39,187 nt of DNA from assembly GCA_025454835.1 (NCBI GenBank), contig JALONQ010000024.1:1-39187 (forward strand). Direction: 5' to 3'. This DNA is from Bacteroidota bacterium (lineage in GTDB: Bacteria; Bacteroidota; Ignavibacteria; UBA10030). Positions 14,938 through 32,948 of the stretch are shown here, piece after piece. Position numbers and translations under genes: made by a program. The notes beneath the pieces are model-generated. The model ran no database searches and was not told the origin of the DNA. It was given only the letters and a program-made list of their open reading frames with translations. The stretch's first letter is position 1. Every line of letters begins with the position of its first letter.

Positions 14938-15010
14938 TGTCACCGCAAAGAGGTGGAGACGCGAAGCAATGCTTCCATTCTCTCGGCGCCTTCGCGTCTT
15001 GGCGGTTCAT
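14938..15010. repeat. Inverted repeat (CGCAAAGA octamer family) between murF and mraY
   Basis: The left arm has octamers CGCAAAGA, GGTGGAGA and CGCGAAGC from 14944. The right arm ends CGCGTCTTGGCGGTTCAT. GTCACCGC and GGCGGT close the element. It fills the 124-base murF-mraY spacer. Related elements are at 17948, 28096 and 32870. Confidence 0.65.
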
Positions 15011-15011
15011 C

Positions 15012-16403
15012 TTATCCCTGAGCCACGATCGCCGCCACGACTTCCTCCATCTGCATTCCGCGCGAACCCTTCACCAGGATCACGTCACCCGGACGCATGA
15101 TGTCCTGCAGTCGCCGGATCAACGCGCGCTTGTCGGCGAAGTGCTCTGCGGTCGACAGCCCCGATGCCCGTCCGATCTCCGCCGCCAACGTCCCGGTGGT
15201 GAACAACAGATCGACCTTTTCTTTCCGGACCGCCTTCCCGACGACCCGGTGCCCGGCCTCGGCCGTGGCGCCCAGCTCGAACATGTCTCCCAGCACCGCG
15301 ATGCGGCGACCGGATACCGAAAACGTCCTGAGCGTGGCCAGCGCCGCCAGCATCGAATCAGGATTGGCGTTGTACGTGTCGTTCAGCACTACCACGCCAT
15401 TCGCGCGAACGACCTGCATCCGCTTGTTTGCGGCGGGCACGGTGCCAAGCGCCCCGATCACGTCGCTTGAAGGCACGCCCAGCGTCAATCCGACGGTCGC
15501 CGCCGCCAGGGCGTTCATGCCGTTGTGAAGACCCGGGATCGCGACGCGTACTTCGAACGGCTTCCGCGAACCGCGGCGCAGGCTGAACACCGCCCGCCCG
15601 TCGCTGTCGGCCTTCAAGCGCGATCCCTTCACTGTCGCCGCGCGGCTCTTGAACCCGAACATCACCTTCTTCTTCACCGGCTTTGACCGGCGGACGATGC
15701 GGGCATCGTCACCGTTGACGAAGGCCGTACCGTCGTGCTCAACCAGCCATTGCCACAGCTCCGCCTCCGCATCGGCCACGCTGTCGAGCGACCCGAAGAA
15801 CTCCATGTGCTCGTGGCCGATGTTCGTCAGGAGCCCGTGGGTCGGTTCCGCCACCGAGCAGAGGTACGCGATCTCACCCGGATGGTTTGTCCCGACCTCG
15901 ATCACGGCCGCTTCGTGCTTCGGCTCGAACCGGAACAGCGTCTGCGGCACGCCAATGTGGTTGTTGAGGTTCCCCTCCGTCGCCAGCACCTTCATCCTGC
16001 GCGACAGGACCGCCTTCAGCATTTCCTTCGTCGTCGTCTTGCCGTTGCTGCCGCCGACGGCGATGACCGGTATGTCAAATCTTCGCCGAACGAGCCGCGC
16101 TAGCGCTCCGAGCGTCTGGACCGTATCCTCGACCACGACACGCGGTACGTGCAGACGCGTCATCATCGGGCCGTTCGCCTCCGCCCATCGGGCGTCGACG
16201 ACGATACCGGACGCGCCTCGTTCGACCGCCGCGCTCACGAAATCGTGGCCGTCGAACCGCTCGCCCCGGATCGCGACGAAGAGGTCCCCCGTTCCCACCG
16301 ATCGTGAATCGGTCGACACGCCCGTCGCGGTCCAACGCTCCGCCGACAGGTCGAACGCTCCACGCTGCGGCACCGTCCGCAGATCGGCCAACGACAGCTT
16401 CAC
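15012..16403 (-). CDS. murF: UDP-MurNAc-tripeptide--D-Ala-D-Ala ligase
   Basis: The 463-residue Mur ligase adds D-Ala-D-Ala to complete the pentapeptide. The N-terminal domain carries GVSTDSRSVGTGDLFVAIRGERFDGHDF; the ATP loop GSNGKTTTKEML is followed by the typical TEGNLNNHIGVPQTL; VLNDTYNANPDSM is in the C-terminal domain. The open frame extends upstream, but that part is the shadow of murE. The GTG at 16403 overlaps the murE stop as GTGA and gives the normal length. No ddl gene, which makes its dipeptide substrate, is in the window. Confidence 0.96.
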   Translation of the reverse strand: MKLSLADLRTVPQRGAFDLSAERWTATGVSTDSRSVGTGDLFVAIRGERFDGHDFVSAAVERGASGIVVDARWAEANGPMMTRLHVPRVVVEDTVQTLGALARLVRRRFDIPVIAVGGSNGKTTTKEMLKAVLSRRMKVLATEGNLNNHIGVPQTLFRFEPKHEAAVIEVGTNHPGEIAYLCSVAEPTHGLLTNIGHEHMEFFGSLDSVADAEAELWQWLVEHDGTAFVNGDDARIVRRSKPVKKKVMFGFKSRAATVKGSRLKADSDGRAVFSLRRGSRKPFEVRVAIPGLHNGMNALAAATVGLTLGVPSSDVIGALGTVPAANKRMQVVRANGVVVLNDTYNANPDSMLAALATLRTFSVSGRRIAVLGDMFELGATAEAGHRVVGKAVRKEKVDLLFTTGTLAAEIGRASGLSTAEHFADKRALIRRLQDIMRPGDVILVKGSRGMQMEEVVAAIVAQG

Positions 16404-17896
16404 GCGACCGCCTCCACTTCTTCCCGGTCGCTGAAATGATGCTTCTCGCGACCGATCACCTGATAGTCCTCGTGTCCTTTGCCGGCGACGAGGATCACGT
16501 CGCCCGGCCCTGCCTGCGAGGCGGCCCAACCGATCGCCGCCTTCCGGTCCGCATCCCGATGCGCCGTATGGCCCGCCGGAAACCCTGCCGAGATCTCGTC
16601 GATGATCCGCTCCGGATCTTCGGTGCGGGGATTGTCCGACGTGACCACGATGACATCTGCCAGCTTCGCGGCGACGGCCCCCATCTGCGGCCGTTTCGTC
16701 CTGTCGCGATCTCCGCCGGCGCCGAACACGACGAACAACCGTCCGCCGTTCTCCGGCGTCATGAGCGATCGCGCCGCGGCCAGGCACTTCTCCAATGCAT
16801 CGGGCGTGTGCGCGTAGTCGACGATGGCCGTCCAGCCGCGCTTCGAGGCGATCCGCTCGAACCGTCCCCGCACGCGATCCGCCGCCATCACGCCCGCAAT
16901 GACCTGCTCGCGCGGCAGTCCGATCGCCAGACCGGCGGCCGTCGCGGCGAGCGCGTTCTCCACGTTGAACTGGCCGACGAGCGGGGTCCGCACGGTGAAC
17001 CGACCTCGTTCATCCTCGAGCTCCAGCACCGATCCGTCGATGCTCGTCGTGGCATTCCGAAGCCTCAACTGCGCGTCGATCGACCTGCCGAATCGGTACA
17101 CGCGGGCCTTCGTGTCGGCGGTGATGCGGCCAGACCAAGGGTCGTCGGCATGCACGACCGCGGCGGCCGACGCTTCGAGCCCGTCGAACAAGATCTTCTT
17201 GGCGGCGAAATACGACTCCATCGTGCCGTGATAGTCGAGGTGGTCCTGCGTCAGGTTCGTGAAGACGCCGGCGGCGAACGGTACGCCGTGGACCCTCGAT
17301 TGCTGCAACGCGTGCGACGAGACCTCCATCGAGACCGCGAGACACTGCTCATCCCGCATGCGGGCGAAAGCTTGCTGCAACTCGAGCGATTCGGGCGTCG
17401 TGTGCGTGGCCGGCTCTGTCGTCGTACCGAATCGCACTTCGATCGTTCCGATCAGTCCGCACCGGCGTCCGGCTGTTTCGAGCACCGAACGCATGATCGT
17501 CGACGTCGTCGTCTTTCCGTTCGTGCCGGTGATGCCCACGATCGTCATTGCCGCCGCCGGCCGGCCGTAATAATTGGCCGCCATCTGCGCCAGCGCGACC
17601 CGCGAATCCGGAACGACCAGCTTCGCGACGCCGGTGTGCATGCACTCCGGGTCGCTGATCGCGTCGTCCCGTTCAACGACCACCACCTTCGCTCCCTGCG
17701 CGATGGCCGACGAGAGAAACCGGTGACCATCGGACGCGGAACCGCTGATCGCCACGAACAGGTCTCCTCGCTCGACGCGGCGAGAGTCATACTGGACCCG
17801 ATTGACCTCGACCTCATGCGTCACCACCATCCGCCCGAAGACGGTCTGGAACATCTTGCGGACCGTGACGTCCCGCATCAACTCGCCCAGTCTCAT
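16400..17896 (-). CDS. murE: UDP-MurNAc-dipeptide--meso-diaminopimelate ligase
   Basis: The 498-residue ligase adds the third residue of the stem peptide. The ATP loop GTNGKT is at 124-129, the carbamylated-lysine region at about 231-236 (AAKKIL), and DYAHTPDAL near 360. The DNPR motif at 421-424 is the signature for meso-diaminopimelate rather than lysine, so a directly cross-linked DAP-type wall is expected. The ATG at 17896 follows a 90-base gap after ftsI that contains a half repeat. It is coupled to murF by GTGA. Confidence 0.97.
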   Translation of the reverse strand: MRLGELMRDVTVRKMFQTVFGRMVVTHEVEVNRVQYDSRRVERGDLFVAISGSASDGHRFLSSAIAQGAKVVVVERDDAISDPECMHTGVAKLVVPDSRVALAQMAANYYGRPAAAMTIVGITGTNGKTTTSTIMRSVLETAGRRCGLIGTIEVRFGTTTEPATHTTPESLELQQAFARMRDEQCLAVSMEVSSHALQQSRVHGVPFAAGVFTNLTQDHLDYHGTMESYFAAKKILFDGLEASAAAVVHADDPWSGRITADTKARVYRFGRSIDAQLRLRNATTSIDGSVLELEDERGRFTVRTPLVGQFNVENALAATAAGLAIGLPREQVIAGVMAADRVRGRFERIASKRGWTAIVDYAHTPDALEKCLAAARSLMTPENGGRLFVVFGAGGDRDRTKRPQMGAVAAKLADVIVVTSDNPRTEDPERIIDEISAGFPAGHTAHRDADRKAAIGWAASQAGPGDVILVAGKGHEDYQVIGREKHHFSDREEVEAVA

Positions 17897-17947
17897 TCAG
17901 TCCCTTGGGTCGACCCGTGCCGCTTTTGGAACGACAGCATCACTGTT

Positions 17948-17976
17948 GGCTTTGCGTCGTGGCGTCTTTGCGGTGA
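17948..17976. repeat. Half copy of the octamer inverted repeat
   Basis: CTTTGCGTCGTGGCGTCTTTGCGGTGAA-like sequence matches the right arm of the elements at 14938, 28096 and 32870. No left arm is visible. It lies in the ftsI-murE spacer. Confidence 0.5.
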
Positions 17977-17986
17977 AGTTGTTCAT

Positions 17987-20155
17987 CTAGTACAGCACCG
18001 CCGTCGTCATCGACCGTGGCTCACACACCAGCGTGACCGATGCCCCGGCCTTCGCTGCCGTACCGGCGGCCGGCATCTGCTGTCGCACGATGCCGCTGCC
18101 GCGCACGTCAACGTCAAATTCGTCGACCACCAACCGCGTCATCGCCCGGCGCACGCTCAAGCCGCGCACGTCGGGAACGGCGACCAGGCCGTTCGCCGCT
18201 GGTTTCAAGGCCGTTCCGAGGACGAGCGATACGACGTCGCCCGGTTCCGCCGGATGTCCGGCTTCGGGTATCTGCTTGGCGATCACGGCACCGTCGCCGA
18301 AGACCCGGCCATTGAGTCCCATGCTGGCCAGCATCTGGCGCGCAAACTCCGGCTGCATCGACCGCACGTCGGGCACGCTCAGCACCCGGTCGCGATGCGG
18401 GTCGCGCTGCGTCATCACCGACCGCGAGATGCGCGACGACGAATTGACGATCCGTTCCGCGATGGCCCTGAAGATCGGTCCGCTCGTCACACCGCCGTAG
18501 AAACCCCGCGTCCGGGGATTGTCCATCATGACGACACCGACCACTTGCGGGTCGTCCGCGGGAAAGAACCCGACGAACGACGCCGTGTACGATCCGCTCG
18601 CGTAAGAACCTTCAATCACTTTGCGCGCCGTTCCGGTCTTGCCGGCGATGCGAACGCCAGGGATGCGCACATCCGTCGCGGTGCCACGCTCCACCACCCC
18701 TTCGAAGGCCTCCGTCAGGCGTTTCGCTGTTTCAACAGACATCACGCGACGGATGACCGTCGGCGAGGTTGAGCGAACGACATCGCCCGACGGCGTCCGT
18801 ACCGACCGCACGACGTACGGGCGGACGAGCACGCCACCGTTGGCCACCGCACCGTATGCCGAGAGCATCTGCACGGGCGTCACGCCCACTTCGTAGCCGT
18901 ACGCCATCGTCTGCAGGGTCGTGCCCGACCAGGTTGAGGGGCGCTTCAGCGTGCCGCGCACTTCGCCCGGAATGTCGATCCCCGTCGGTACTCCGAAGCC
19001 CAGGTTGCGCGCCATGTCATACAGCCGCTCCGGACCCACCACCTTCCCCACTTTCGCCATCACAATGTTGCTCGACACTTCCATCGATTCGCGGAAGGTG
19101 AGCCAGTCGTGCTCGTGCGTGTCTTTGATCAGCCGCGTGTACCGGCCGATCGTCACTTTCATCGTGCCGCGCTCGGCGTAGAAACGTTCCTCCGGCTGGA
19201 CCAGGTGGTGCTCGTACGCCGCCGCCGCCGTCACAACCTTGAAGGTCGAGCCGGGCTCGAAAATGTCGGTCACGGCCCGGATGCGGGCGCGTGAAGCATC
19301 GACCGCACCCGGCGCATTCGGGTTCACGCCCGGCGCCACGGCCAGCGCCAGGATCTCCCCCGTCCGCGGGTTCATCAACACGGCCAGACCGCCGTCGGCA
19401 CCGTTGATCTCGAGGCCGCGGCGAAGCTCCTCTTCGGCCACGGCTTGGTACTCGATGTCGAGCGTCAGGTCCACGTCATGGCCATTCACCGGCTCGATGC
19501 GCGGGTAGTCGGCCGACGGACGCGAACGGCCGAGACCGTCGCGTTGGAGCGTCACCGACCCGTTCGAGCCCTTCAGGTCCGCGTTGAGCGCCAGCTCGAT
19601 ACCCGAGATCCCCCGATGGTCCAGGTCGGTGAATCCCAACAGCGCACCGCCGACATGGTCGTAGTGATAGAGCCGCCTCGGCTCATTCATCATGACAATA
19701 CCGGGCAGATGGGCTGCTGCGACCCGCTTCGCCATTTCCGGACGGACACTCCGCTCCATCCAGACGAAGCGCCGCCGATCCGATCCGCTCGGACCTCCGA
19801 GCTTCTCGAGGTAGAAACCGCCCGGCTTGCCGAACACCTGGGCGAACGCTTTTGCCACGCGGCGCGCGTCGTCACCGACGATCTTCGGGTCTGCCGCGAA
19901 CGAGACGAACATCGTGTTCGACGCAAGGACGCTGCCGTTGCGATCGACCAGATTGCCGCGCAATGCGGGCAGCACGAAGCGTTGCTCATACTGCTTCTTC
20001 GCCAGAGCCCGATACTTTCCGGCATCGAGCACCTGGACCATGACGAGCCGTCCGCCGATCACAAGAAAGAACAGCGCAAAGAAGAACTTCAGGAGCAGGA
20101 AGCGCGCACGGAATCCTCTTGCCGGATCGGGCGTCGCGGCCACGGGTTCGTTCAT
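17987..20155 (-). CDS. ftsI: Division transpeptidase FtsI/PBP with two PASTA domains
   Basis: The 722-residue class B penicillin-binding protein cross-links septal peptidoglycan with FtsW. One membrane helix is at about 20-40, then the dimerisation region (RGNLVDRNGSVLA near 66-78). The transpeptidase motifs are complete: STFK with Ser303, SSN at 361-363 and KTGT at 506-509. The C-terminus carries two PASTA repeats, about 591-647 (VPDVRSM) and 656-714 (VPDVRGL), which the E. coli FtsI lacks. The ATG at 20155 overlaps the ftsL-like stop by four bases. The product acts in the periplasm. Confidence 0.95.
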   Translation of the reverse strand: MNEPVAATPDPARGFRARFLLLKFFFALFFLVIGGRLVMVQVLDAGKYRALAKKQYEQRFVLPALRGNLVDRNGSVLASNTMFVSFAADPKIVGDDARRVAKAFAQVFGKPGGFYLEKLGGPSGSDRRRFVWMERSVRPEMAKRVAAAHLPGIVMMNEPRRLYHYDHVGGALLGFTDLDHRGISGIELALNADLKGSNGSVTLQRDGLGRSRPSADYPRIEPVNGHDVDLTLDIEYQAVAEEELRRGLEINGADGGLAVLMNPRTGEILALAVAPGVNPNAPGAVDASRARIRAVTDIFEPGSTFKVVTAAAAYEHHLVQPEERFYAERGTMKVTIGRYTRLIKDTHEHDWLTFRESMEVSSNIVMAKVGKVVGPERLYDMARNLGFGVPTGIDIPGEVRGTLKRPSTWSGTTLQTMAYGYEVGVTPVQMLSAYGAVANGGVLVRPYVVRSVRTPSGDVVRSTSPTVIRRVMSVETAKRLTEAFEGVVERGTATDVRIPGVRIAGKTGTARKVIEGSYASGSYTASFVGFFPADDPQVVGVVMMDNPRTRGFYGGVTSGPIFRAIAERIVNSSSRISRSVMTQRDPHRDRVLSVPDVRSMQPEFARQMLASMGLNGRVFGDGAVIAKQIPEAGHPAEPGDVVSLVLGTALKPAANGLVAVPDVRGLSVRRAMTRLVVDEFDVDVRGSGIVRQQMPAAGTAAKAGASVTLVCEPRSMTTAVLY

Positions 20156-20736
20156 CGCTGGCGACGCGCCTCCTCGAGCGCTTCCTCGATCTGATGCACC
20201 CGGTCCGGACTCACCGCGAGCCAGCCGGGAACGGCGGCTGAATTCCGCAGCCCAAGGTCCTGCTCCGCCATCGTCCGCACCCGTTCGAGACTCGACATCC
20301 GGTTGATCTGGGCGCGCAGCATCTCCTGTTCGTTCAGGCTCCGCTGGTGCCGGTTCTCAAGGTCGCCAATGCGCACCACCAGTTGGCCGACCGCAATGAT
20401 GTTGCTGATGTACACGACGCTGGCCACCGCGGTGGCGATGAGCGTCAGAACGATCGAGAACGGAGAAACGCGGCGGCGGGCCGCGGTCCGGTTGCGGGGC
20501 TTGGCAACGGACGCGCCCGTGACCGTGTCGGGACGGCTGGAGTAGACGGCGTCGCGCTGGTCGGCCGACGGGGCGATCGGCGGCGTGTCGGCCCCATGCG
20601 CGCGGCGAAGATACGCCTCGATCAGCTCGTTGTCGGGCGTGGCCGGACGGCGCTGGACGTCGATGGGTTGGGGGGTCGGCACGATGTGGAGATCCTGGGT
20701 AAGCCGTCTCGGAAAGACGAACCTGTCCCGCCTCAT
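20152..20736 (-). CDS. ftsL: FtsL-like divisome protein
   Basis: The 194-residue protein has a polar, proline-rich cytoplasmic N-terminus of about 90 residues, one membrane helix (about 91-116) and a short coiled coil (about 117-150, IGDLENRHQRSLNEQEMLRAQI). This topology and the place between rsmH and ftsI identify it as the FtsL equivalent; sequence similarity in this family is too low to be decisive. The N-terminus is much longer than in E. coli FtsL. It overlaps ftsI by four bases. No Shine-Dalgarno site precedes the ATG. Confidence 0.75.
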   Translation of the reverse strand: MRRDRFVFPRRLTQDLHIVPTPQPIDVQRRPATPDNELIEAYLRRAHGADTPPIAPSADQRDAVYSSRPDTVTGASVAKPRNRTAARRRVSPFSIVLTLIATAVASVVYISNIIAVGQLVVRIGDLENRHQRSLNEQEMLRAQINRMSSLERVRTMAEQDLGLRNSAAVPGWLAVSPDRVHQIEEALEEARRQR

Positions 20737-20770
20737 GGAGGCGAGGATGAATCGCCCCGGGGAGGCGAAG

Positions 20771-21694
20771 CTACAAGCGCTCCGCTGCGCGGAGCTTCGC
20801 GCTCCGTGCGCGCGGGTTTGACTTCTCTTCGTCGGGACCGGCCACGACGGGTTTTTTCGTCAGCGGCCGGAGCGTCGGGGTCCGGGGTTCGTCGGGCAGA
20901 TACTTCGAGCCCGAGGGAATCCGGTCCGCGGCGGCGTCCCGTATGAATTCTTTGACAATGCGGTCTTCGAGCGAATGGTACGCGATCACCACCAGCCGAC
21001 CGCCTGGCCTCAACAACTCCGGAGCGTCCACGAGACAGCGCCGAAGCTGCTCCAATTCCTGGTTCACCTCGATCCGGATCGCCTGAAAGACCCGGGCCAA
21101 CGACTTGGTCGCCGTCGGGCCGGGGGTCAGCGACTCCACGATCCGCGCCAACTGCGTCGTCGTCTCGACCGGACGCTGTCGGACGATCGACCTCGCGATC
21201 TGGCGGGAGCGTCGCTCCTCGCCGTATTCCCAGAGGATGCGGGCCAATTCCTGCTCGTCGGTGGCGTTCACGACATCGTAAGCCGACCGGCCCGAGCGAC
21301 GGTCCATCCGCATATCGAGACGCTCATCTCCCCGAAAGCTGAACCCCCGCGAGGCGTCGTCCAATTGGTGCGACGAGACGCCGAGGTCGAGCAAGATCCC
21401 GGCGATCTTTGCCGATCCGATCGACGCCAGTTCGGCCGCCACGTCGCCGAAGTTCGCACGCCGAAGGTCGATGCGGCCTTCGAAGCGCGCCAGGCGTTTC
21501 TTTGCCTCCGCGATCGCTTCGTCGTCCTGGTCGAAGGCCACGACGCGTCCGGCCGGAGACAGCCGCAACAGCAACGCCTCGGTGTGACCGCCCCCGCCGA
21601 GCGTCGCGTCGACATAGACGCCGCTCGGGTCGGTCACAAGATACTCCAGCGATTCGTTCAGCAGTACCGGGGTATGATAAGGCGAAACAGCCAC
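20771..21694 (-). CDS. rsmH: 16S rRNA (cytosine1402-N4)-methyltransferase
   Basis: The 307-residue enzyme (MraW) methylates C1402 of 16S rRNA with S-adenosylmethionine. The start YHTPVLLNESLEYL, the SAM site VDATLGGGGHTEALL, LDLGVSSHQLDDASRGFSF and VIAYHSLEDRIVKEF are family signatures. The open frame runs upstream into the mraZ shadow. I chose the GTG at 21694, which leaves an 8-base gap after mraZ and a normal length; no nearer start codon exists before the conserved YHTPVL. Confidence 0.95.
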   Translation of the reverse strand: MAVSPYHTPVLLNESLEYLVTDPSGVYVDATLGGGGHTEALLLRLSPAGRVVAFDQDDEAIAEAKKRLARFEGRIDLRRANFGDVAAELASIGSAKIAGILLDLGVSSHQLDDASRGFSFRGDERLDMRMDRRSGRSAYDVVNATDEQELARILWEYGEERRSRQIARSIVRQRPVETTTQLARIVESLTPGPTATKSLARVFQAIRIEVNQELEQLRRCLVDAPELLRPGGRLVVIAYHSLEDRIVKEFIRDAAADRIPSGSKYLPDEPRTPTLRPLTKKPVVAGPDEEKSNPRARSAKLRAAERL

Positions 21695-21702
21695 GTCGGC
21701 CG

Positions 21703-22146
21703 CTACGTCTTCCGTTGAAAGACGTGTTCGACGACCGTTTCGTAGGTATCGGGTTGCGACTTCTGGTACTCGTCGTACACGGCAGGATCCCACATCTCGA
21801 TGCGGTCCACGACACCCAGGATGAGCACCTCGCCGCCGATCCCAGCATACTTCAACAATTCCTGCGGCACGGAGATGCGCGATTGGCCGTCGAGGTCGAC
21901 GTCCGTCGCCCACTGGAAGAGCGTCCGGCCAAAGAACCGATGGCGAGCGTCGAGGAACGAAAGTCCGCGGATGTACGATTCGACCTGCCTCCATTCCTCC
22001 TGCGGATACACATACAGGCACCTCTCAAACCCGCGCGTGAGCACGAGGGAGCCCTGGGCCCCAAGGCTCTTGCGGAGCCGGGCCGGGATCGCGATGCGCC
22101 CCTTGGCGTCGAGGGTATAGAGGTACCTGCCTTTGAAGGAGGACAT
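21703..22146 (-). CDS. mraZ: Transcriptional regulator MraZ
   Basis: The 147-residue protein has two AbrB-like SpoVT/MraZ halves: FKGRYLYTLDAKGRIAIPARLR at 4-25 and TDVDLDGQSRISVPQELLKYAG in the second half. MraZ forms a ring and binds short G-rich direct repeats at the dcw promoter, usually repressing its own operon. A matching repeat set is at 22301-22326. The ATG at 22146 starts the conserved domain exactly; the frame further upstream lies in the leader. Confidence 0.95.
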   Translation of the reverse strand: MSSFKGRYLYTLDAKGRIAIPARLRKSLGAQGSLVLTRGFERCLYVYPQEEWRQVESYIRGLSFLDARHRFFGRTLFQWATDVDLDGQSRISVPQELLKYAGIGGEVLILGVVDRIEMWDPAVYDEYQKSQPDTYETVVEHVFQRKT

Positions 22147-22164
22147 TGGCTCTTGATAAAAGAT

Positions 22165-22246
22165 GAACGCTGATGAAGGCAGAAAAACGGGATTTCCGCG
22201 GATCAAAGATCTGCGATCATCCAGTTTTTCAGTGTCATCTGCGTTC
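22165..22246. repeat. Long imperfect inverted repeat in the mraZ leader
   Basis: GAACGCTGATGAAGGCAGAA (22165-22184, continuing AAAC) pairs imperfectly with the segment 22224-22246. Inside it a second hairpin, CGCGGATC-AAA-GATCTGCG, is visible. The leader RNA could fold into a long stem directly before the mraZ start. Confidence 0.55.
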
Positions 22247-25627: not shown

Positions 25628-25658
25628 ACGCTCTCTTCTCTTTCGATCACCGAACCCT

Positions 25659-27017
25659 ATGAACCGTCTTCTTCTTCTCACTGTCGTGGCCGCGCTTACC
25701 GTATCGAGCGTCGCCGCCCAAACATCCGCCCGCCGGGTCACGATCGACGACGCCGTCCGGATCGCGATGGAAAAGAACTCCGACCTTCAGGCCGCGCGCT
25801 TCGAAGTGGACCGCGCCGACGCCCGCGTGCAGGAGGCCATTGGCTACGCCCTTCCGTCGCTCGACCTGAGCGGTCGCTACACGCGCTCGTTGAAGCGGCC
25901 CGTCTTCTTCCTTCCCGACTTCGCCAACCCAGGCAGCGGCAAGATCATGCCGGTGCAGATCGGCTCGAACCACTCCGTCGACATGACGCTGAACGCCCGC
26001 CAGATCTTGTTCAACGGCACGGTCTTCGTGGGCATGGGGGCCGCGGGCATCTATGCCGATGTCGCGCGCGATCTCTACCGGGCGCGTCAACTCGAGACGG
26101 TGACGACCGTGAAGCGGGCTTTCTACCGAGCATTGCTCGCACGCGAAGCGCTCGACCTGACCCGCACGAGCCTGAAGAATGCCGAGGACAACCTGAAGAA
26201 TGTCGATCTGCTTCGGGCCCAAGGTGTGCTGTCGGAGTACGACCATCTGCGCGCCTCCGTCGCGGTCGAAAACCTTCGTCCCGCCGTCATCCAATCCGAG
26301 ACGAACTACACGCTCTCCGTCGACGGCGTCCGAAGCGCCATCGGGCTTGGCGCGCTTGAGCCGATCGATGTCGTTGGTCAGATGCAGATCGAGCCCGTGG
26401 ACGATTCGCTGATCGTGAGCGCACCGCAGCGTTTCCTCGAAACGAACCACACGTACGCCGCCCTGCAGAAACAGGTCGAGGTGAACGAGGCCTTCGTCAT
26501 GGCCGAGCGCGCCAACTACCTGCCGACGATCAGCGCGTTCGGCACGTATCAGTACCAGACGGCCAAGAACACGTTCAACATCTCGACGAGCGATTTCTTC
26601 ACCTCGTCGCAGGTGGGCCTGCAGTTCTCGCTCAGCCTCTTCCAGGGTCTGCAGACCAACGCCCGCGTCCAGCAGACGCAGGTCGATGTTCGCAAGAGCC
26701 AGGAACAGTTGACGAACGTCGAGCGGAACCTCCGCATCGGACTCACGTCGACCCTCGGCAATCTGAAGGCGGCCCGACAGCGCATCGATGCGCAACAGCG
26801 GACGGTCGAGCAGGCCGAGCGCGGCTACAAGATCGTGACGACCTGTTTTCTCAGCGGAGCGGCCACGCAACTTGAAGTGAACGATGCCGAGCTGGCGCTG
26901 ACCCAGGCCAAGGTGAACCGTATCCAGGCCCAGTATGACTACCTCGTCGCTGCGGCAGAGCTGGACCAGTACCTTGGCCGGCTGCCGGCCTCCGTTTCCA
27001 CCGAAGACCTTGACTGA
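25659..27017 (+). CDS. TolC-family outer-membrane efflux channel
   Basis: The 452-residue protein has a signal peptide (MNRLLLLTVVAALTVSSVAAQ) and two repeats of long heptad-rich helices typical of outer-membrane efflux proteins. DDAVRIAMEKNSDLQAARFEV opens the first repeat, and AATQLEVNDAELALTQAKV is the conserved motif near the C-terminus. It should form a trimeric outer-membrane and periplasmic tunnel for the RND pump encoded downstream. The ATG at 25659 lies 31 bases after tetR; a longer frame lacks the signal at its N-terminus. One cysteine before the last motif (TTCFLSG) is unusual in this family. Confidence 0.92.
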   Translation: MNRLLLLTVVAALTVSSVAAQTSARRVTIDDAVRIAMEKNSDLQAARFEVDRADARVQEAIGYALPSLDLSGRYTRSLKRPVFFLPDFANPGSGKIMPVQIGSNHSVDMTLNARQILFNGTVFVGMGAAGIYADVARDLYRARQLETVTTVKRAFYRALLAREALDLTRTSLKNAEDNLKNVDLLRAQGVLSEYDHLRASVAVENLRPAVIQSETNYTLSVDGVRSAIGLGALEPIDVVGQMQIEPVDDSLIVSAPQRFLETNHTYAALQKQVEVNEAFVMAERANYLPTISAFGTYQYQTAKNTFNISTSDFFTSSQVGLQFSLSLFQGLQTNARVQQTQVDVRKSQEQLTNVERNLRIGLTSTLGNLKAARQRIDAQQRTVEQAERGYKIVTTCFLSGAATQLEVNDAELALTQAKVNRIQAQYDYLVAAAELDQYLGRLPASVSTEDLD

Positions 27018-27039
27018 TCGAATCGAAAGGACCCGACCC

Positions 27040-28092
27040 ATGCTGTGGAACCGAACTGTATCTATCTGGTTGTCCGCCGTCTCCGGCGTCGCCATCATCG
27101 CACTTGCCGGCTGCGGCGGCGAGTCGAAAGGCGCCACGGCTGAAGCGGCACCCCGGATCACCGTGCGCATTGAGACCGTGTCGCCCACGCCCCTCAACGA
27201 CGCCATCACCGTGGTCGGAATCGTCAAGGCGGCCGAAGACGTCATGCTCAGCCCCGAAGAAGGCGGCGTCGTCAAGGAGTGGAAGGTCAAGAAGGGGCAG
27301 CGGGTCGAGAAGGGACAAGTGATCGTTGTCCTGAAGGACGAGGTCATCAAGGCGTCGTACGATGCCGCCGTCGCCCAGTACGAGATGGCCGATATGAACT
27401 ACACCAAGCAGCAGCGGGTGTATGAGGAGCAGGGGATCAGCGACCTCCAATACCAGAACCTTCGGCTCGGCCGCGACGCCGCGAAGGCTAACGCCGACCT
27501 GATGAAGGCCCGCTGGGAACGGACGCAGATCAAGAGCTCCGTCGACGGCGTTCTTGACGATCAGTACTTCGACGAAGGCGAGTTCTCGCCGCCGGGCGTG
27601 CCGATCGCGCACCTGGTGAATCTCAGCACGCTCAAGATCTCGGCCGAGGTCCCCGAGCGATATGCCGCGGCCATCGCCCCCGGAGCGGCGATGCTGGTGA
27701 TCTTCGACGCGTTCCCCAACGACACGCTCCGCACGCGCCTGATGTTCGTCGGCTCGACGGTCAACGCCAATAACCGGGCCCTCACGGTCGAAGCGATCCT
27801 GCCCAATCATCGTGGACGCCTCAAGCCGGAGATGATCGGCAAAGTGCTCGTGCTCCGTTCTTCGAAGGAAAGCGCCCTGCTCGTCCCCGAGATCGCCGTA
27901 CAATTGGTCGACCGGAATCGGTACGTCGTCTTCGTCGAGGTCGGCGGCAAGGCTGTGCAGCGCGTTGTGACGCTGGGCGCGCGCGAAGGGAGCCGCGTCG
28001 AAGTGCTCGGCGGCCTCCGGAGCGGCGACCGGCTCATCGTGACTGACCTCCAGAAGCTCACCGATGGCACCTCCGTGAGCGTGGCCGGCTAA
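27040..28092 (+). CDS. RND periplasmic adaptor lipoprotein
   Basis: The 350-residue membrane-fusion protein has a lipobox (IALAGC) after the signal helix, so it is anchored by lipid. A biotinyl-lipoyl-like half (EEGGVVKEWKVKKGQRVEKGQVI) is followed by a short alpha hairpin, the second lipoyl half (IKSSVDGVLDDQYFDEGEFSPPG), a beta-barrel domain and a membrane-proximal domain. It bridges the RND pump to the TolC channel. The ATG at 27040 is preceded by GAAAGGA. A 114-base gap carrying an inverted repeat separates it from the pump gene. Confidence 0.93.
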   Translation: MLWNRTVSIWLSAVSGVAIIALAGCGGESKGATAEAAPRITVRIETVSPTPLNDAITVVGIVKAAEDVMLSPEEGGVVKEWKVKKGQRVEKGQVIVVLKDEVIKASYDAAVAQYEMADMNYTKQQRVYEEQGISDLQYQNLRLGRDAAKANADLMKARWERTQIKSSVDGVLDDQYFDEGEFSPPGVPIAHLVNLSTLKISAEVPERYAAAIAPGAAMLVIFDAFPNDTLRTRLMFVGSTVNANNRALTVEAILPNHRGRLKPEMIGKVLVLRSSKESALLVPEIAVQLVDRNRYVVFVEVGGKAVQRVVTLGAREGSRVEVLGGLRSGDRLIVTDLQKLTDGTSVSVAG

Positions 28093-28095
28093 ATC

Positions 28096-28167
28096 GTTCA
28101 CCGCAGAGACGCTGAGACGCTAAAAGACGATGAACGTTTTCTTTGCGTCTTGGCGACTTGGCGGTAA
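28096..28167. repeat. Inverted repeat (CGCNNAGA octamer family) between adaptor and pump genes
   Basis: The left arm runs CGCAGAGA, CGCTGAGA, CGCTAAAA in strict 8-base phase from 28102. The right arm is TTTGCGTCTTGGCGACTTGG followed by CGGT. TTCACCGC and GCGGTAA close the ends. Confidence 0.65.
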
Positions 28168-28206
28168 TCCTCTTCAGAAAAATCCGTTGCCCTAACGAGA
28201 ACCGAT

Positions 28207-31200
28207 ATGCGACCCTGGAATCTGGCCATCGACAATTCGGTGGCCGTCTACATCATGCTGCTCCTCATCGTCATCGTGGGATTCATCTCTTACACCTCGA
28301 TGCCGCGAGAAGCTGCCCCCGATATCTCCATCCCCATCATCATCGTCAACGTCCCCTACCCCGGCGTGTCGCCGGCCGACATCGAGGGGCTCGTCGTGCA
28401 GCAGCTCGAGCGCGACCTGCAATCGCTGGCCGACGTCAAGCAGATCACGTCGGTATCGAAAGAGGGGATGGGAACAGTCCGCGTCGAGTTCAACACGGGC
28501 GTCGACATTGACGAAGCACTCCGACGCGTGCGCGACAAGGTGAGCTCGGCCAAGCCGAGCTTGCCGAACGACATCCTCGAGCCGATCGTGTCGGAGATCA
28601 ACATCAGCGAGTTCCCGATCATGTACGTCAACGTCGGCGGCGACGTCGGGCTGGCGCGTCTCAAGAAGATCGCCGAGGACCTGCAGGACCAGGTCGAGGC
28701 GATCCCGGGCGTCCTTCGCGCCGACCTGAACGGCGGCCTTCAACCCGAGATCCAGGTCAACTGCGACGTCTACCGACTCAAAGCCTACCAGATCGGTTTC
28801 GAAGATGTCGTCAATGCCATCCGGGGCGAGAACCTCTCCATCCCCGGTGGTTCGATCGACGACGGCAGCCAATCCTTCAGCGTGCGCGTGCCGGGCGAGT
28901 TCAAGGAGGTCCGTCCGATCGAGGACATCGTCATCAAGATCCAGAATAGCAAGCCGATCTACGTGCGCGACGTCGCCCAGATCGAATTCTCGTTCGAAGA
29001 TACGCGCACGATGGCACGCCTGAACGGCGTGGATGTCGTGTCACTCCAGGTGCGGAAACGGGCCGGCGAGAACCTCATACGGATCGCGGATGAGGTGCAC
29101 AAGATCGTCAAGGCGGAGCAGGTGACGATCCCGGCCGGCATCCAGCTGAGCGTGTCGAACGATCAATCGAAGAACATCAAGCGGTCCGTGGAAGAACTCG
29201 AGAACAGCATTTTCACGGGCATGTTCCTCGTCGTCGTGGCGCTCTTCATGTTCTTCGGACTCAAGAACTCGCTACTCATCTCGACGGCCATCCCGATCTC
29301 GATGCTCATCGGGTTCATGGTTCAGTCCGCGCTCGGCATTACGCTTAACTTCGTCGTCCTGTTCGCGCTCGTCCTGGTGCTCGGCATCGTGGTCGACGAC
29401 GCTATCGTCGTCATCGAGAACATCTACCGCCACCAGCAGATCTACCACAAGTCGCCGGTCCAGGCGGCCCGCGACGGCGTGGCCGAGGTGGCCGTTCCCG
29501 TGCTCACCTCGACCTTGAGCACGCTGTCCCCCTTCATCCCCCTTCTCTTCTGGCCGGGCGTGGTCGGCGACTTCATGTGGTACCTCCCGATGACGTTGAT
29601 CACCACGCTCGGCGCGTCGCTCTTCGTGGCGATGGTCATCAGTCCGGTACAGGGGGCGAAGTGGATCGACTACAAGAAGGAGATCGCCAAGGCCAAGTTG
29701 GCGCTCGAACATCCGACCTGGTGGCGCAAGCACAACCCCATTACGAAGGTCTACCACTTTACGGACGAGAAGATGTTCCCGTGGATGCAGGAGATCTACG
29801 CGACCACACTTCGCTGGGCGCTCGGACATAAGTGGAAGACGATCGGCGGCGCATTCGGTCTGCTCGTGGTCGCCTTCGTCCTGACCGCACTCTTCGGTAC
29901 CGGAATCGAGTTCTTCCCGACGACCGACCCGCAGATGGTGAACGTACGCATCGAAGCCCCTCCAGGCACGGCGCTTGAAGTGACCGACGCCTTGACGCTT
30001 GAGGTGGAGCGCCGCCTCAACGGCGTGTCGGGCCGCCAGGATGTGGAATTCCTGACTTCGAGCGTCGGTTCCTCCGACGATATGTTCGACTTCGGGGGTC
30101 AGGGGACGTCGAACAAAGCTGGACTTGGCGTCAACTTTCACGAGAAGGCCGTGCGCATGCAGAGCTCGACGACCACGGTCGAGGAGATCCGGAAGGCCGT
30201 CCAGGTGATGCCGGGGGCCGACATCCGCGTGGTCAAGCAAGAGATGGGGCCGCCGGTCGGAGCGGCCGTCAGCATTGAGATCGCCGGCGACGACTACGCG
30301 CAGCTGGCCGAGATCAGCCGCGACGTGCGTGGCACGATCCGCGATATCCCGGGCCTTGTCGACCTGAAGGACGACTACAACCCGGCAAAGCCCGAGATCG
30401 CCGTCGTCGTCGACCGGGAGAAGGCGGGACTGTTGTGGACGTCCACAAGCCAGATCGCCGGCACCATCCGCTCGGCCATCACGGGTACGGAAGCGTCGAA
30501 GTACCGCGTCGGCGAGGACGAGTACAAGATCCGCGTGCGTCTGCGCGAAGACCAGCGCTCGTCCGTCAACGATCTGTCGAACATCAACGTCAGCTTCATG
30601 AACCGGCGCGGGCAGATGCTTTCGATCCCCGTCGTGGCCGTGGCTGATATTCAGCGCTCCGCCAGTGTGAGCGAGATCCGCCGGAAGGACCTGAAGCGGG
30701 TCATCACGGTGTCGGGCAACGTGGAAGGACGCGTGGCGTCCGAGGTCCTTGACGACGTGAAGGCACGGCTGGAATCAAAGAGCCTGCCGGCCGGTTACTC
30801 CGTTCGATTCACGGGAAAGGACGAAGAGCAGAACAAGGCGATGGTCTTCCTCGGACGCGCGTTCCTGTTCACGATCCTGCTTGTATTCCTGACGCTCGTG
30901 ATGGAGTTCAATTCTATCAAAGTGCCCATCGTCATCATGCTCACGGTGCCGCTGGCCTTGGTCGGCGTATTATTTGGACTGCTCGTCACGCGCATGCCGT
31001 TCTCGGTGATCATGACGGGGGTCGGCGTCATCGCCCTCGTGGGCATCGTGGTCAAGAACGCCATCGTGTTGCTGGACTTCGTCAAACAGAAGCGTGATGA
31101 AGGGGGGATGACCCTCGACGAAGCTCTGGTCGAAGCGGGCAAGACGCGCTTGCGTCCTGTCATGCTCACGGCGGCAACGACGGTCTTGGGTGTCGTTCCT

Positions 31201-31428
31201 CTGGCGACGGGCTTCGACTTCAACTGGCGTGAGCTGCACTTCGTCATCGGCGCGGAGAGCGCCGGTTTCTGGGGACCGCTCGGCGTGGCGATCATCTCTG
31301 GTCTGACGTTGTCAAGCTTCCTGACGCTCGTCGTGGTGCCCGTGGTGTATTCGAAGGTGGAAGAGACGGCGGACGCATTGCATCGATGGGTGAGCAGGAT
31401 CCGAGGGAAGGACGTGGCGGGGGCATAA
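28207..31428 (+). CDS. RND multidrug/efflux transporter permease
   Basis: The 1073-residue inner-membrane proton antiporter is full length for the AcrB/HAE family. The first helix (about 11-30) is followed by the porter domain (PGVSPADIEGLVVQQLE). The TM4 proton-relay pair is seen in VLGIVVDDAIVVIENIYRH, and TM10-12 near the C-terminus include GIVVKNAIVLLDF. It forms a trimer that takes substrates from the periplasm or membrane. With the TetR, TolC and adaptor genes it makes a complete tripartite pump. Substrate class cannot be read; metal-type signature residues are not evident. Confidence 0.95.
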   Translation: MRPWNLAIDNSVAVYIMLLLIVIVGFISYTSMPREAAPDISIPIIIVNVPYPGVSPADIEGLVVQQLERDLQSLADVKQITSVSKEGMGTVRVEFNTGVDIDEALRRVRDKVSSAKPSLPNDILEPIVSEINISEFPIMYVNVGGDVGLARLKKIAEDLQDQVEAIPGVLRADLNGGLQPEIQVNCDVYRLKAYQIGFEDVVNAIRGENLSIPGGSIDDGSQSFSVRVPGEFKEVRPIEDIVIKIQNSKPIYVRDVAQIEFSFEDTRTMARLNGVDVVSLQVRKRAGENLIRIADEVHKIVKAEQVTIPAGIQLSVSNDQSKNIKRSVEELENSIFTGMFLVVVALFMFFGLKNSLLISTAIPISMLIGFMVQSALGITLNFVVLFALVLVLGIVVDDAIVVIENIYRHQQIYHKSPVQAARDGVAEVAVPVLTSTLSTLSPFIPLLFWPGVVGDFMWYLPMTLITTLGASLFVAMVISPVQGAKWIDYKKEIAKAKLALEHPTWWRKHNPITKVYHFTDEKMFPWMQEIYATTLRWALGHKWKTIGGAFGLLVVAFVLTALFGTGIEFFPTTDPQMVNVRIEAPPGTALEVTDALTLEVERRLNGVSGRQDVEFLTSSVGSSDDMFDFGGQGTSNKAGLGVNFHEKAVRMQSSTTTVEEIRKAVQVMPGADIRVVKQEMGPPVGAAVSIEIAGDDYAQLAEISRDVRGTIRDIPGLVDLKDDYNPAKPEIAVVVDREKAGLLWTSTSQIAGTIRSAITGTEASKYRVGEDEYKIRVRLREDQRSSVNDLSNINVSFMNRRGQMLSIPVVAVADIQRSASVSEIRRKDLKRVITVSGNVEGRVASEVLDDVKARLESKSLPAGYSVRFTGKDEEQNKAMVFLGRAFLFTILLVFLTLVMEFNSIKVPIVIMLTVPLALVGVLFGLLVTRMPFSVIMTGVGVIALVGIVVKNAIVLLDFVKQKRDEGGMTLDEALVEAGKTRLRPVMLTAATTVLGVVPLATGFDFNWRELHFVIGAESAGFWGPLGVAIISGLTLSSFLTLVVVPVVYSKVEETADALHRWVSRIRGKDVAGA

Positions 31429-31481
31429 GCGCGGGGCCGAAGCGCACAAACACGCGCTGAGGGAGTTCTCTACGACGTGCC

Positions 31482-31518
31482 AAAGGCGCGGGAGGTCATG
31501 CGACCAACCGCGCCTTTT
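31482..31518. terminator. Hairpin between convergent genes (copy 2 of shared hairpin)
   Basis: The arms AAAGGCGCGG (31482-31491) and CCGCGCCTTT (31508-31517) are joined by an inner GGTC-ATGC-GACC stem and an AA bulge; a fourth T follows. It ends the RND gene and may also serve the opposing HAD gene. A smaller hairpin (AGCGC/GCGCT, 31441-31458) precedes it. Confidence 0.7.
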
Positions 31519-31565
31519 CGATTTCATGCTTCTCGATGCGAGCTTGTTTCGTATCTCGCGCTTCC

Positions 31566-32168
31566 TCAGACCTCGAACCCCGCGGACCGCAGATCCTCGG
31601 TCAGTTCCTTGATCCCCCTGAAGACGATCCCCTGCACACCAGCCCGCCGCGCCCCTTCAATGTTTTCCGGCAGATCGTCAATGAACAGCATGGAGGACGA
31701 TTCGAGTCTCTCTCCTCGCACGACGCCTTCGTAGAAGGCTGGGTCGGGTTTGAGGGCTTTGAGCTCGTAGGACAGATAGAATCGGCGCAAATGGCGCAGC
31801 GACGGCGCGGTCCGCAGGCAATGGTCGAAATGGAGCGGGTTCGTGTTGCTGACCAACGCTGTGGAAGCCTGCTCGGCGACCTTTCGCACCAGTTCTTCCA
31901 TTCCCTCAACCGGCTCCGGCAGAACTCCGAGGAACGCTCGCTCGATATCGGCCGCCTTGCGGCTACCGACGATCTTCAACGCTTCGTGACGGAACTCGTC
32001 CGTCGTCATCCTCCCCCCTTCATACACCTTCCCCATCTCCCGCAGATCGTGGCCGATGCGCTGACGCCGCTCCGCATCGGGTTCATGCAGGGTGTCCCAA
32101 AATCGCTCCAGCCGCAGATAGACCAGTACGTTCCCAAGGTCGAACAACACGACTCGCGGAAGGCTCAT
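31566..32168 (-). CDS. HAD-superfamily hydrolase
   Basis: The 200-residue phosphatase-like protein has HAD motif I DLGNV (Asp10), motif II in LVSNTN, the motif III lysine in LKPDPAFYEG and motif IV in FIDDLPENIEGA. DLGNV, with Gly in place of the second Asp, is common in the YihX-type sugar-phosphatase and haloacid-dehalogenase subgroup, so the protein is probably active. A helical cap lies between motifs I and II. Its ATG overlaps the metallophosphoesterase stop as ATGA, so the two are coupled. Substrate unknown. Confidence 0.85.
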   Translation of the reverse strand: MSLPRVVLFDLGNVLVYLRLERFWDTLHEPDAERRQRIGHDLREMGKVYEGGRMTTDEFRHEALKIVGSRKAADIERAFLGVLPEPVEGMEELVRKVAEQASTALVSNTNPLHFDHCLRTAPSLRHLRRFYLSYELKALKPDPAFYEGVVRGERLESSSMLFIDDLPENIEGARRAGVQGIVFRGIKELTEDLRSAGFEV

Positions 32169-32836
32169 GGACGCATCTCCACCGAGATCGACCCGCCGAC
32201 CGTAGCGATGGCGTGGTTGCCAAGATGGCCCGGTCCGCAGTTGACAACGACGCTTCGGCCGATCATCTCCATGCCCCGTGCTTCATGGATGTGACCGCAC
32301 ACGACCAGGTCTGGCTGACGCCGATCGATGAACGCCCGCACCGAGGTGCTGCCCACGTGCCGTTTGCCGCCACCGCTTCCGATGAGGTCGAGCGTGGTGT
32401 TGGCCGGAGGGGCGTGCGGCACAAAGATGCGCCATCGGGCCTGCGTGGCGTTGGACCATCCCCGTTCGGCCCGCGCCATGATGTCGTCTTCGCCGATCTC
32501 GTACGGCGTGTGCATCGGCGTCGGCGGAGAGCCCGAGACGCCGAAGATGGCGATGTCGTCCCACCACACGGTGCGGCCATCGACGAAATGCGCTTCTTCG
32601 GAGAAGACGGTCTCAAGCAGACGTGGATCCATATTGCCCGCTACGACAGCCACGCGGACCCGGGAGACGAACGAACGTAACGCCGTGCGCGCCTCTTCGG
32701 CCGTTCCGCGCGTCGTCAGATCGCCGGCGATGATGAGCCCATCGATGCCGGGATTGGAAGCGATCATCCGTTCAACGGCAGCGTAGTCGCCGTGGATATC
32801 CGCACAGAGCAGAAGGCGTCGTGGAGTGCGTTGCAT
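32165..32836 (-). CDS. Metallophosphoesterase
   Basis: The 223-residue calcineurin-like phosphoesterase has the metal-binding set in order: ADIHGDY (Asp13, His15), AGDLTTRG, AGNMDP, a histidine in VPHAPPAN, and CGHIHEARG. Such enzymes cleave phosphomonoesters or phosphodiesters in the cytoplasm. The ATG at 32836 starts just before motif I; the longer frame to 32992 covers a repeat and is unlikely to be coding. It is followed immediately by the HAD gene. Substrate cannot be predicted. Confidence 0.88.
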   Translation of the reverse strand: MQRTPRRLLLCADIHGDYAAVERMIASNPGIDGLIIAGDLTTRGTAEEARTALRSFVSRVRVAVVAGNMDPRLLETVFSEEAHFVDGRTVWWDDIAIFGVSGSPPTPMHTPYEIGEDDIMARAERGWSNATQARWRIFVPHAPPANTTLDLIGSGGGKRHVGSTSVRAFIDRRQPDLVVCGHIHEARGMEMIGRSVVVNCGPGHLGNHAIATVGGSISVEMRP

Positions 32837-32869
32837 CTCGGTGGAGGGATGGGTAGGTTCGAGTAGGGA

Positions 32870-32948
32870 AGCATTGCACCGCTGAGGCGCAAAGACGCTG
32901 AGCGGAATGCAAATGTTGTGGCGTCTCTGCGTCTTTGCGGTACATGCT
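32870..32948. repeat. Inverted repeat (CGCNNAGA octamer family) before the phosphoesterase gene
   Basis: The left arm reads CGCTGAGG, CGCAAAGA, CGCTGAGC in 8-base phase from 32880. The right arm is GCGTCTCTGCGTCTTTGCGG, whose complement is the same octamer. Short flanks AGCATTGCACCGC and GCGGTACATGCT are themselves inverted, suggesting a discrete unit. Confidence 0.7.

Follow-up and report, generated by a model that had tools for sequence, protein, structure and literature searches.

The repeats described here, found in a stretch of Bacteroidota DNA of 39,187 nucleotides (the window), are probably MITE-like and non-autonomous, derived from a family of very small mobile elements that encode a GxxExxY protein. 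The computed evidence that bears on this reading comprises the family itself, the bracketing of GxxExxY genes by its arms, the specificity of arm for protein, nuclease-type residues in that protein, empty junctions in relatives and a rule of position. An earlier note on this DNA had described three full copies and one half copy of an inverted repeat built on an 8-base phased unit, and the sequence bears out the copies and their places as well as the unit and its phase. The gene names given there (dcw genes, adaptor and pump) agree with Pfam, which finds MraY, Mur ligases, a transpeptidase with PASTA, and HlyD-type and AcrB-type proteins. The elements and their neighbours are as follows.

Arms 14942-15006, no strand assigned: hairpin element 1, at the murF-mraY junction, 5 bases past the murF stop
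Arms 28100-28165, no strand assigned: hairpin element 2, in the gap between the HlyD-type adaptor and AcrB-type pump genes, 7 bases past the adaptor stop
Arms 32878-32941, no strand assigned: hairpin element 3, in a gap whose flanking genes are probably divergent
17948-17974, minus strand: half element, a single right arm (ACCGCAAAGACGCCACGACGCAAAG on the minus strand), at the ftsI-murE junction
13763-14887, minus strand: mraY (PF00953, PF10555), downstream neighbour of element 1
15012-16403, minus strand: murF (Mur ligase domains), upstream neighbour of element 1
16400-17896, minus strand: murE (Mur ligase by Pfam), downstream neighbour of the half element
17987-20155, minus strand: ftsI-like transpeptidase gene with PASTA (by Pfam), upstream neighbour of the half element
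27070-28092, plus strand: adaptor (membrane-fusion) gene, HlyD-type (PF16576, PF13437), upstream neighbour of element 2
28207-31428, plus strand: RND pump gene, AcrB-type (PF00873), downstream neighbour of element 2

Co-directional genes flank elements 1 and 2 and the half copy. Element 3 adjoins the start of a minus-strand metallophosphoesterase gene and a plus-strand ORF without a Pfam match, and therefore its setting is probably divergent. The arms of all three full copies end exactly in ACCGC...GCGGT and are built from the unit CGCNRAGA with a period of 8, wherein N is free and the following position is A or G; in element 3 the inverted repeat is prolonged outward by GAAGCAT/ATGCTTC. The full copies have fold z values of -2.7, -5.0 and -6.3, in order, and the half copy has no fold (z = +1.45), and the full copies could plausibly form long RNA stems between genes that are co-transcribed. 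In 18 hairpins from this genome, the free positions (two per unit) change on one arm independently of the other, so the stem is not the sole feature that is kept.

A genome search agrees with the earlier description of a dispersed repeat: ACCGCNRAGNCGCNRAG with zero mismatches occurs at 51 places in the 3.2-Mb genome, compared with 0 for the reversed pattern. Searches of the genome with two mismatches return mostly noise (203 versus 141). Within the window only, ACCGCNRAGACGC with two mismatches is found 21 times versus 15.6 expected, with 11 of 100 shuffles as high, and a looser scan with two units and three mismatches performs at chance (81 found, 81.5 expected). The significance of the family thus derives from the genome-wide arm count and from the paired arms, none of which appear in 80 kb of control stretches, rather than from the window-only scan. 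The same reversed-pattern and paired-arm controls rule out chance or simple repeats as the source. Our hairpin list for this genome is hand-curated, with three array copies lengthened over an inner palindrome. Phased inverted hairpins are also present in contigs of many phyla, among the matches listed. No Rfam family matches the window at the gathering score; in the open-access literature searched, six arm strings of the CGC type had no match and six further strings matched three unrelated papers, whose subjects are a fungus, cardiac cells and the developing eye.

Sequences just outside the arms were compared for 66 elements (21 from this genome and 46 named elements, minus one too close to the end of its locus), and their base frequencies there read TTT[A/C]. 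Direct repeats of 3-8 bases flank 28 of the 66, versus approximately 14 expected from swapped flanks, in a sample of genomes that differ in composition. An outer palindrome spanning 10 bp beyond the arms has a score of 39% versus 33% for swapped pairs (1 of 2000 shuffles as high), a slight excess that arises in part because the TTT[A/C] end is common to the elements.

Full and gene-less copies mostly occupy the short gap between co-directional genes, directly behind the upstream stop, a location in which an operon can carry such elements. For 27 sites in this genome (tandem arrays counted as one each; 14 single-arm sites and the half copy left out), 22 of the 24 that have a gene directed at them lie no more than 40 bp past its stop codon (p = 7e-10 versus random intergenic bases), and none of 25 falls between convergent genes, compared with 21% of random intergenic bases. 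Elements that carry GxxExxY behave similarly: 14 of 19 are within 40 bp of a stop codon, all 14 at -14 to +6. The earlier note had held that random placement, including inside genes, would count against a family of this kind; the gene caller places all 37 listed rows (36 hairpins plus the half copy) between genes, with one running 16 bases into the end of a gene. Single-arm matches lie inside called genes in 4 of 14 cases. A probable in-gene hairpin of one relative (locus L234) is present in a second genome (G041) too, and the L234 array has a partial match only in G041.

The junctions murF-mraY, ftsI-murE and adaptor-pump, which represent three of the four window sites (elements 1 and 2 and the half copy), are arm-free in five of five relatives, where the best match to the 13-base arm start has 3-5 mismatches as opposed to 0 in the window. 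A GxxExxY element in genome G046 is likewise absent from the same junction of G054, and empty radA and fabD-fabG junctions in other genera measure 13, 24 and 30 bp; all of these comparisons are across species or genera. For locus L300, a search for an empty site in G046 and G054 found no synteny.

These observations bear on the idea that the repeats are sites kept for the host, either paired sites to which a chromosome protein or a regulator binds, or hairpins for RNA processing or stability or termination. Position behind stop codons, stable predicted RNA folds and the fact that orthologous copies keep their unit positions are what such sites might exhibit, and this is the reading that the authors of a Geobacter study gave to look-alike repeats (PMC2700814). 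We nevertheless consider it unlikely, given that the same junctions are arm-free in relatives, that the number of arms ranges from 0 to 51 per genome among 61 genomes, that convergent gene pairs are avoided, and that the GxxExxY gene inside some elements is left unexplained. Identity as intrinsic terminators was rejected, since a scan that allowed loops of 3-8 only made no call at the elements and gave 10 calls in 14800-33000 versus 12.4 expected.

The link to GxxExxY is most evident from the flanks of its genes. When each genome contributed a single locus, picked on its protein score, 22 of 30 had inverted flanks and 8 of 30 had none at threshold (some, such as L256/L260, are orthologous places in two genomes, so the loci are not all independent). 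Random intervals had such flanks in 1 case of 400, and 870 swapped pairs had them at a rate of 6.3%. Two-sided inward octads occur at 34 of 53 GxxExxY loci, including 28 of the 43 that were not picked for their arms, and at none of 30 PF05635, 20 PF01797 or 240 random loci. Inverted flanks per se reach the GxxExxY threshold at 12 of 29 PF05635 loci and 7 of 19 RAYT loci, with other repeats. The PF05635 arms have a 7-base phase that differs from that of GxxExxY arms, and thus arms go with the protein; this family we take to be S23p.

The reverse search is consistent with this association. Among the matches listed, 8 of 118 named stretches found by their arms hold GxxExxY, of which 7 have inverted flanks and 6 have two-sided inward octads, and they represent Planctomycetota, Alphaproteobacteria, Acidobacteria (with Holophagaceae), Verrucomicrobiaceae and Prolixibacteraceae. 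ACCGC arms surround GxxExxY at six loci, all in other genomes (L080, L114, L157, L161, L168 and L232), and where an arm lies near a Y1 gene (L231-L233), GxxExxY is found between arms in two of three. For plasmid or chromid loci found by protein, inverted flanks are present at 3 of 8 (4 of 8 when arms are allowed to extend into the ends of annotated ORFs) and lacking at threshold at 5 of 8, with two-sided octads at only 2 of 8. The gene-bearing elements, found in several phyla, mostly measure 440-600 bp and have arms of phased 8-9 base units of the form C[A/G]C-N-[A/G]-A-[G/T], in the dialects CGC, CAC-AGAG, CACGGAT and CACGAAG. Of the plasmid or chromid copies with inverted flanks, one lies between radA and an FAD-protein gene in Bacteroides finegoldii, and another separates fabD from fabG in Sphingomonas parapaucimobilis.

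The encoded protein (PF13366/TIGR04256, 120 aa) is PD-(D/E)XK nuclease-like. In 37 sequences, E23, D63, K75 and Q87 are invariant and E73 and Y91 nearly so, residues to which we provisionally assign the E, D, ExK and Q...Y motif labels. The structure model is confident (pLDDT 95), and Foldseek returns weak matches, with SSO0001 first and lambda exonuclease also present (best E 0.025); no solved structure matches by sequence. By its residues and modelled fold the protein belongs to the PD-(D/E)XK superfamily, and nuclease activity is predicted. It is multicopy in this genome and receives only passing mentions, in two papers, in the open-access literature searched.

We also judge it improbable that GxxExxY is a mere passenger, with some other factor spreading the hairpins and the nuclease gene having settled there repeatedly. 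Such an arrangement would account for the arms in two relatives that lack PF13366, and for the eight GxxExxY copies examined in this genome, none of which combines strict ACCGC arms with a step of 8 bases: C44 comes closest but steps by 9 bases, and others use CAC or other dialects, so none was matched as the present partner of the window hairpins. The number of PF05635 genes also tracks hairpin number. Yet the bracketing of GxxExxY recurs across the four dialects listed above, PF05635 has 7-base arms of its own, and no other clear coding cargo lies between arms within 600 bp in the named sample. Two wide arm pairs do enclose genes other than GxxExxY, which counts against the preferred reading.

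Across 61 genomes, with kinship ignored, hairpin number correlates best with GxxExxY number (rho 0.48, p 1e-4), then with PF05635 (rho 0.34, p 0.008) and weakly with RAYT (rho 0.22, p 0.09), while GxxExxY and RAYT numbers correlate at 0.45. Since PF05635 and RAYT also correlate, copy numbers alone cannot decide the partner. PF13366 is absent from 2 of 29 hairpin-bearing relatives, each with one arm match, and present in 19 of 32 genomes without hairpins.

That these are REP/REPIN elements moved by RAYT, a Y1 transposase and the first partner considered, is very improbable: RAYT genes are indeed found in 52 of 61 relatives, in 29 of 29 hairpin-bearing genomes and twice in this genome, and REPs are also reported near stop codons (PMC3733652), but the RAYT loci carry no octad arms, their inverted flanks are unphased, the two Y1 genes here have no arm (up to two mismatches) within their surrounding 4 kb and 7 kb, and the GTAG/CGTC end is absent, with TTT[A/C] frequencies outside the arms instead. 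Thus, of the two likenesses offered in the earlier note, REP lacks support and MITE-like is supported, since the copies are dispersed, have common termini, are missing from orthologous junctions in relatives and have a gene-bearing version with like arms.

For the preferred reading, that of MITE-like copies of a GxxExxY element, we envisage that GxxExxY, or another protein that uses GxxExxY arms, would recognise the units and move both forms, whether it cuts DNA or acts through repair-associated copying. The transcribed hairpin may be tolerated, and by analogy with 23S rRNA intervening sequences might even be excised from RNA. More tentatively, GxxExxY may be the mobility protein of widespread minimal elements, a single-domain nuclease that reads degenerate units of 8 bases in palindromic ends and inserts, at operon stop codons, both its own element and, in trans, hairpins that lack the gene, with the 7-base elements of PF05635 as a second class on the same plan. 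A tie between hairpins and GxxExxY would jointly explain a widespread kind of repeat and a common, functionally uncharacterised protein. If true, a minimal selfish element spreads in operon gaps behind stops without disrupting genes, repeats formerly taken as regulator sites become probable insertions, and a small nuclease-like protein gains a defined candidate substrate for assay.

Several known systems invite comparison. Bacterial MITEs derived from insertion sequences are gene-less and have inverted ends in common with a gene-bearing element. The hairpins are likewise short and gene-less with terminal inverted repeats, have empty sites in relatives, and share like ends with a gene-bearing element in other genomes. 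However, that element differs from insertion sequences in that its gene is TIGR04256/PF13366 instead of a DDE or HUH transposase or a serine/tyrosine recombinase, its ends are degenerate phased units, and there is no clear target duplication.

REP/REPIN sequences with RAYT (TnpA-REP) are, in the cited accounts, similarly small dispersed hairpins, mostly behind genes and presumed to depend for their movement on a single small protein acting in trans (PMC3733652, PMC8266576), but the two differ in ends, arm phasing, protein family and the lack of convergent sites here. The 23S rRNA intervening sequence is described as a selfish element of approximately 430 bp that has one small gene and resides inside a transcript, from which RNase III removes it (PMC4990558). 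It sits in rRNA with an S23p gene, here equated with PF05635, whereas the elements here carry PF13366, another family; PF05635 copies in the host's order have 7-base-phased arms.

A further counterpart comes from Geobacter metallireducens, for which 'putative global regulator binding sites' of classes 1-4 were reported in 2009 as opposite-strand pairs, at variable distance, of tandem octa- or heptanucleotide units, the fourth set being called similar to multicopy sequences in many genomes (PMC2700814). The sections describing these sites interpret them as targets of IHF/HU or other regulators, and give there no GxxExxY/PF05635 or mobile-end reading (PMC2700814). Class 3 has the 7-base unit MTYCTGA, with one pair between proB and proA (PMC2700814). 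The class 2 unit TCTCCGTS[Y] reads as the complement of a CACGGAGA-type unit; judged from these printed units, the Geobacter sites look like the same family as our hairpins.

The three full hairpins (14942-15006, 28100-28165 and 32878-32941) and one half copy (17948-17974) that the earlier note described in the window were all found, and the 8-base phasing attributed to them was confirmed: the unit is CGC-N-[A/G]-A-G-A at 8-base steps, in arms bounded by a starting ACCGC and an ending GCGGT. Across the 3,225,489 bp of this genome (47 contigs), a two-unit arm pattern occurs at 51 places, compared with 0 for the reversed pattern, while loose two-unit matches inside the window alone are not above chance. 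Good RNA folds are obtained for the full copies and not for the half copy, and no Rfam family matched the window copies. In the third hairpin (32870-32948), the inverted repeat runs 7 bases further outward (GAAGCAT/ATGCTTC). Among 66 elements, the flanks outside the arms are slightly more complementary than swapped flanks.

From fetched stretches around arm matches, we listed 36 hairpins and the half copy in this genome, 37 rows that include three tandem arrays, two of them on contig C2 and the third at the end of C9. The last is a 90-bp tandem array (end of L040), and a like copy opens contig C34 (start of L057), where the array probably continues after having, again probably, broken the assembly. 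Regarding the prospect raised in the earlier note that copies might be found at random positions or inside genes, all 37 rows are intergenic by the calls of a purpose-made gene scorer, with one running 16 bases into a gene end; 4 of 14 single-arm matches fall inside called genes. Control stretches totalling 80 kb held no paired arms. A family hairpin inside an apparent coding run in G046 and its relative G041 (L234:7398-7448) is a possible in-gene copy. Three array copies carry a 39-bp palindrome, CCTGCCTGCC...GGCAGGCAGG, within the right arm (L037:4265-4303, 5893-5931 and 6007-6045) that is absent from other copies, as though a second hairpin family had inserted.

With each array counted once, there are 27 sites in this genome, 25 of which have both neighbours known. 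These 25 gaps are co-directional in 23 cases, divergent in 2 (one being the third window hairpin) and convergent in none, where 21% of random intergenic bases (n = 4000) lie in convergent gaps. If a gene points at the site, the element usually lies no more than 40 bp downstream of its stop codon (22 of 24 sites, p = 7e-10; 22% for random bases with a gene pointing at them), and the median gap without the element is 60 bp versus 351 bp at random intergenic bases. Elements might simply survive where they do no harm, but the lack of convergent sites argues, in this small sample, against this; it favours a preference linked to operon junctions or to transcription.

The murF-mraY, ftsI-murE and adaptor-pump junctions are arm-free in five relatives (G001, G003, G011, G018 and G027), where the best match to the 13-base arm start has 3-5 mismatches, versus 0 in the own genome. 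Most of these gaps are shorter than 80 bp, and ftsI-murE of G011 holds a different, unrelated long spacer. Arm counts over 61 genomes range from 0 to 51, with 29 positive.

Among places where an arm lies near a Y1 transposase gene, two (L232 and L231) show facing arms that enclose an ORF roughly 120 codons long. The ORF in L232 is a TIGR04256 GxxExxY protein (137 bits), and both loci match PF13366, which is present in 46 of the 61 genomes and in nine copies in this one. At 30 GxxExxY loci selected on protein alone, one per genome and not fully independent (L256 and L260, for example, are one place in two genomes), 22 have inverted flanks, against a background of 1 in 400 for random intervals and 6.3% for swapped pairs (n = 870); the repeat spans 444-605 bp at these 22 loci (median 486). 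Loci of PF05635 (12 of 29) and RAYT (7 of 19) pass an equal threshold with other kinds of repeats, and therefore the test for phased units (octads) carries more weight. Inward octads stand on both sides at 34 of 53 GxxExxY loci, and at 0 of 30 PF05635, 0 of 20 PF01797 and 0 of 240 random loci. The 30 protein-selected loci give 21 of the 34 and 13 further loci from the own genome and G001 (L282-L294) give 7; the other ten loci comprise L231, L232, L250 and L295-L299, which were selected with arm matches in view, and two from L300. RAYT (PF01797), which was tried first as the partner, does not fit given its lack of octads. The MITE-like half of the earlier note's 'REP or MITE-like' proposal stands while the RAYT/REP half is unsupported. 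The better of the RAYT-type genes in this genome opens contig C33 (L054:1-700) beside other short repeats, CCGAAGGGTTTCATTC, which are likely its REPs.

Arms at GxxExxY loci come in the dialects CGC-NRAG, CAC-NRAG, CACGGAT and CACGAAG, and their self-identity peaks at lags of 8-9 (0.37-0.40), against lag 7 (0.70) for PF05635 and no phase for PF01797. PF05635 genes (four-helix-bundle, 23S rRNA IVP; L311-L340 in relatives, 15 copies in this genome) have their own inverted flanks with this 7-base phase, which would make them a second class of similar design. In this genome, most GxxExxY copies show 9-base spacing or another dialect, so no single copy stands out as the helper of the window hairpins. 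One of them carries an in-frame TAG (L274/L281, C3:137072-137419); the G041 orthologue of the L232 gene (L301, contig C40) differs by a 2-base gap and is therefore probably frameshifted. Over the 61 genomes, with kinship ignored, hairpin number correlates more strongly with copy number of GxxExxY (rho 0.48, p = 1e-4) than with that of PF05635 (0.34, p = 0.008) or RAYT (0.22, p = 0.09), which is weak support for the GxxExxY link.

The gene-bearing elements follow the same stop-codon rule: among the 22 loci with inverted flanks, 19 have a gene (taken as a long ORF) pointing at them, and 14 of these lie no further than 40 bp from its stop, each of the 14 at -14 to +6 bp. Residues E23, D63, K75 and Q87 are invariant among 37 GxxExxY proteins, and E73 and Y91 nearly so, the residue pattern of RecB/Cas4-type PD-(D/E)XK nucleases. 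The structure model is confident (pLDDT 95); its nearest solved folds are weak matches, led by SSO0001 (E = 0.025) and including lambda exonuclease and tRNA splicing endonucleases, and no sequence match to solved structures was found. Between the orthologous elements L256 and L260 (G046 and G041), the 25-base arms differ at 8 places, every one an N or spacer position, and a second pair (L232 and its G041 counterpart) has one difference at N and one change of CGC to CAC. Within 18 hairpins of this genome, the bases at N and R in one arm resemble those in the other no more than they do in shuffled pairs. From the placement of the orthologue differences and this independence, we infer that the units are recognised, rather than pairing alone. 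Among 46 hairpins from named genomes these positions are more alike than shuffled, but in that set the dialect may differ from genome to genome. GxxExxY is the likely partner of the hairpins; it would bind the arm units and promote insertion by cutting or repair copying.

A three-unit arm occurs in at least 118 stretches of named genome contigs from many phyla. Among the 139 arm matches listed, by a loose rule, 61 have a partner within 250 bp, 65 have none in reach, 6 (4 loci) bracket GxxExxY and 7 (4 loci) have a wider partner without it; of these last loci, L091 and L133 lack a clear gene and L139 and L149 hold other genes, in pairs 2.4 and 1.4 kb wide. By profile, GxxExxY is present in 8 of the 118 stretches listed, 7 with inverted flanks and 6 with two-sided inward octads. 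Eight plasmid or chromid copies, selected on protein only, include three with inverted flanks (Bacteroides finegoldii, 45; Gemmatirosa, 84; Bernardetia, 36) and two with two-sided octads; the Sphingomonas copy reaches 42 only if arms may run over annotated ORF ends (tried on all eight), and 17 otherwise. Four of these elements are placed as follows.

Bacteroides finegoldii: between radA and an FAD-protein gene
Bernardetia: between ade and a mannose-1-phosphate guanylyltransferase gene
Sphingomonas: between fabD and fabG
Gemmatirosa: in a record without annotation

The radA junction is 13 bp in Parabacteroides and holds other sequence in Phocaeicola; without the element, the fabD-fabG junction is 30 bp in Rhizobium and 24 bp in Sinorhizobium.

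In the open-access literature searched (preprints and most subscription journals lying outside it), we found neither the six CGC arm strings nor a description of the element's protein, ends and target. Two papers there mention GxxExxY in passing and one has PF13366; six other strings matched three papers, whose subjects are a fungus, heart cells of mammals and the development of the eye. Paired tandem octa- or heptanucleotide sites of Geobacter metallireducens, one with the unit TCTCCGTS[Y], were described by their authors as putative regulator sites (PMC2700814); judged from the units printed there, they look like the same family as the hairpins. REPs are likewise known to be located near stop codons (PMC3733652). 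A small element with gene-less derivatives is a known kind, and the Coxiella 23S rRNA IVS with its S23p gene is described as a 428-nt selfish element (PMC4990558).
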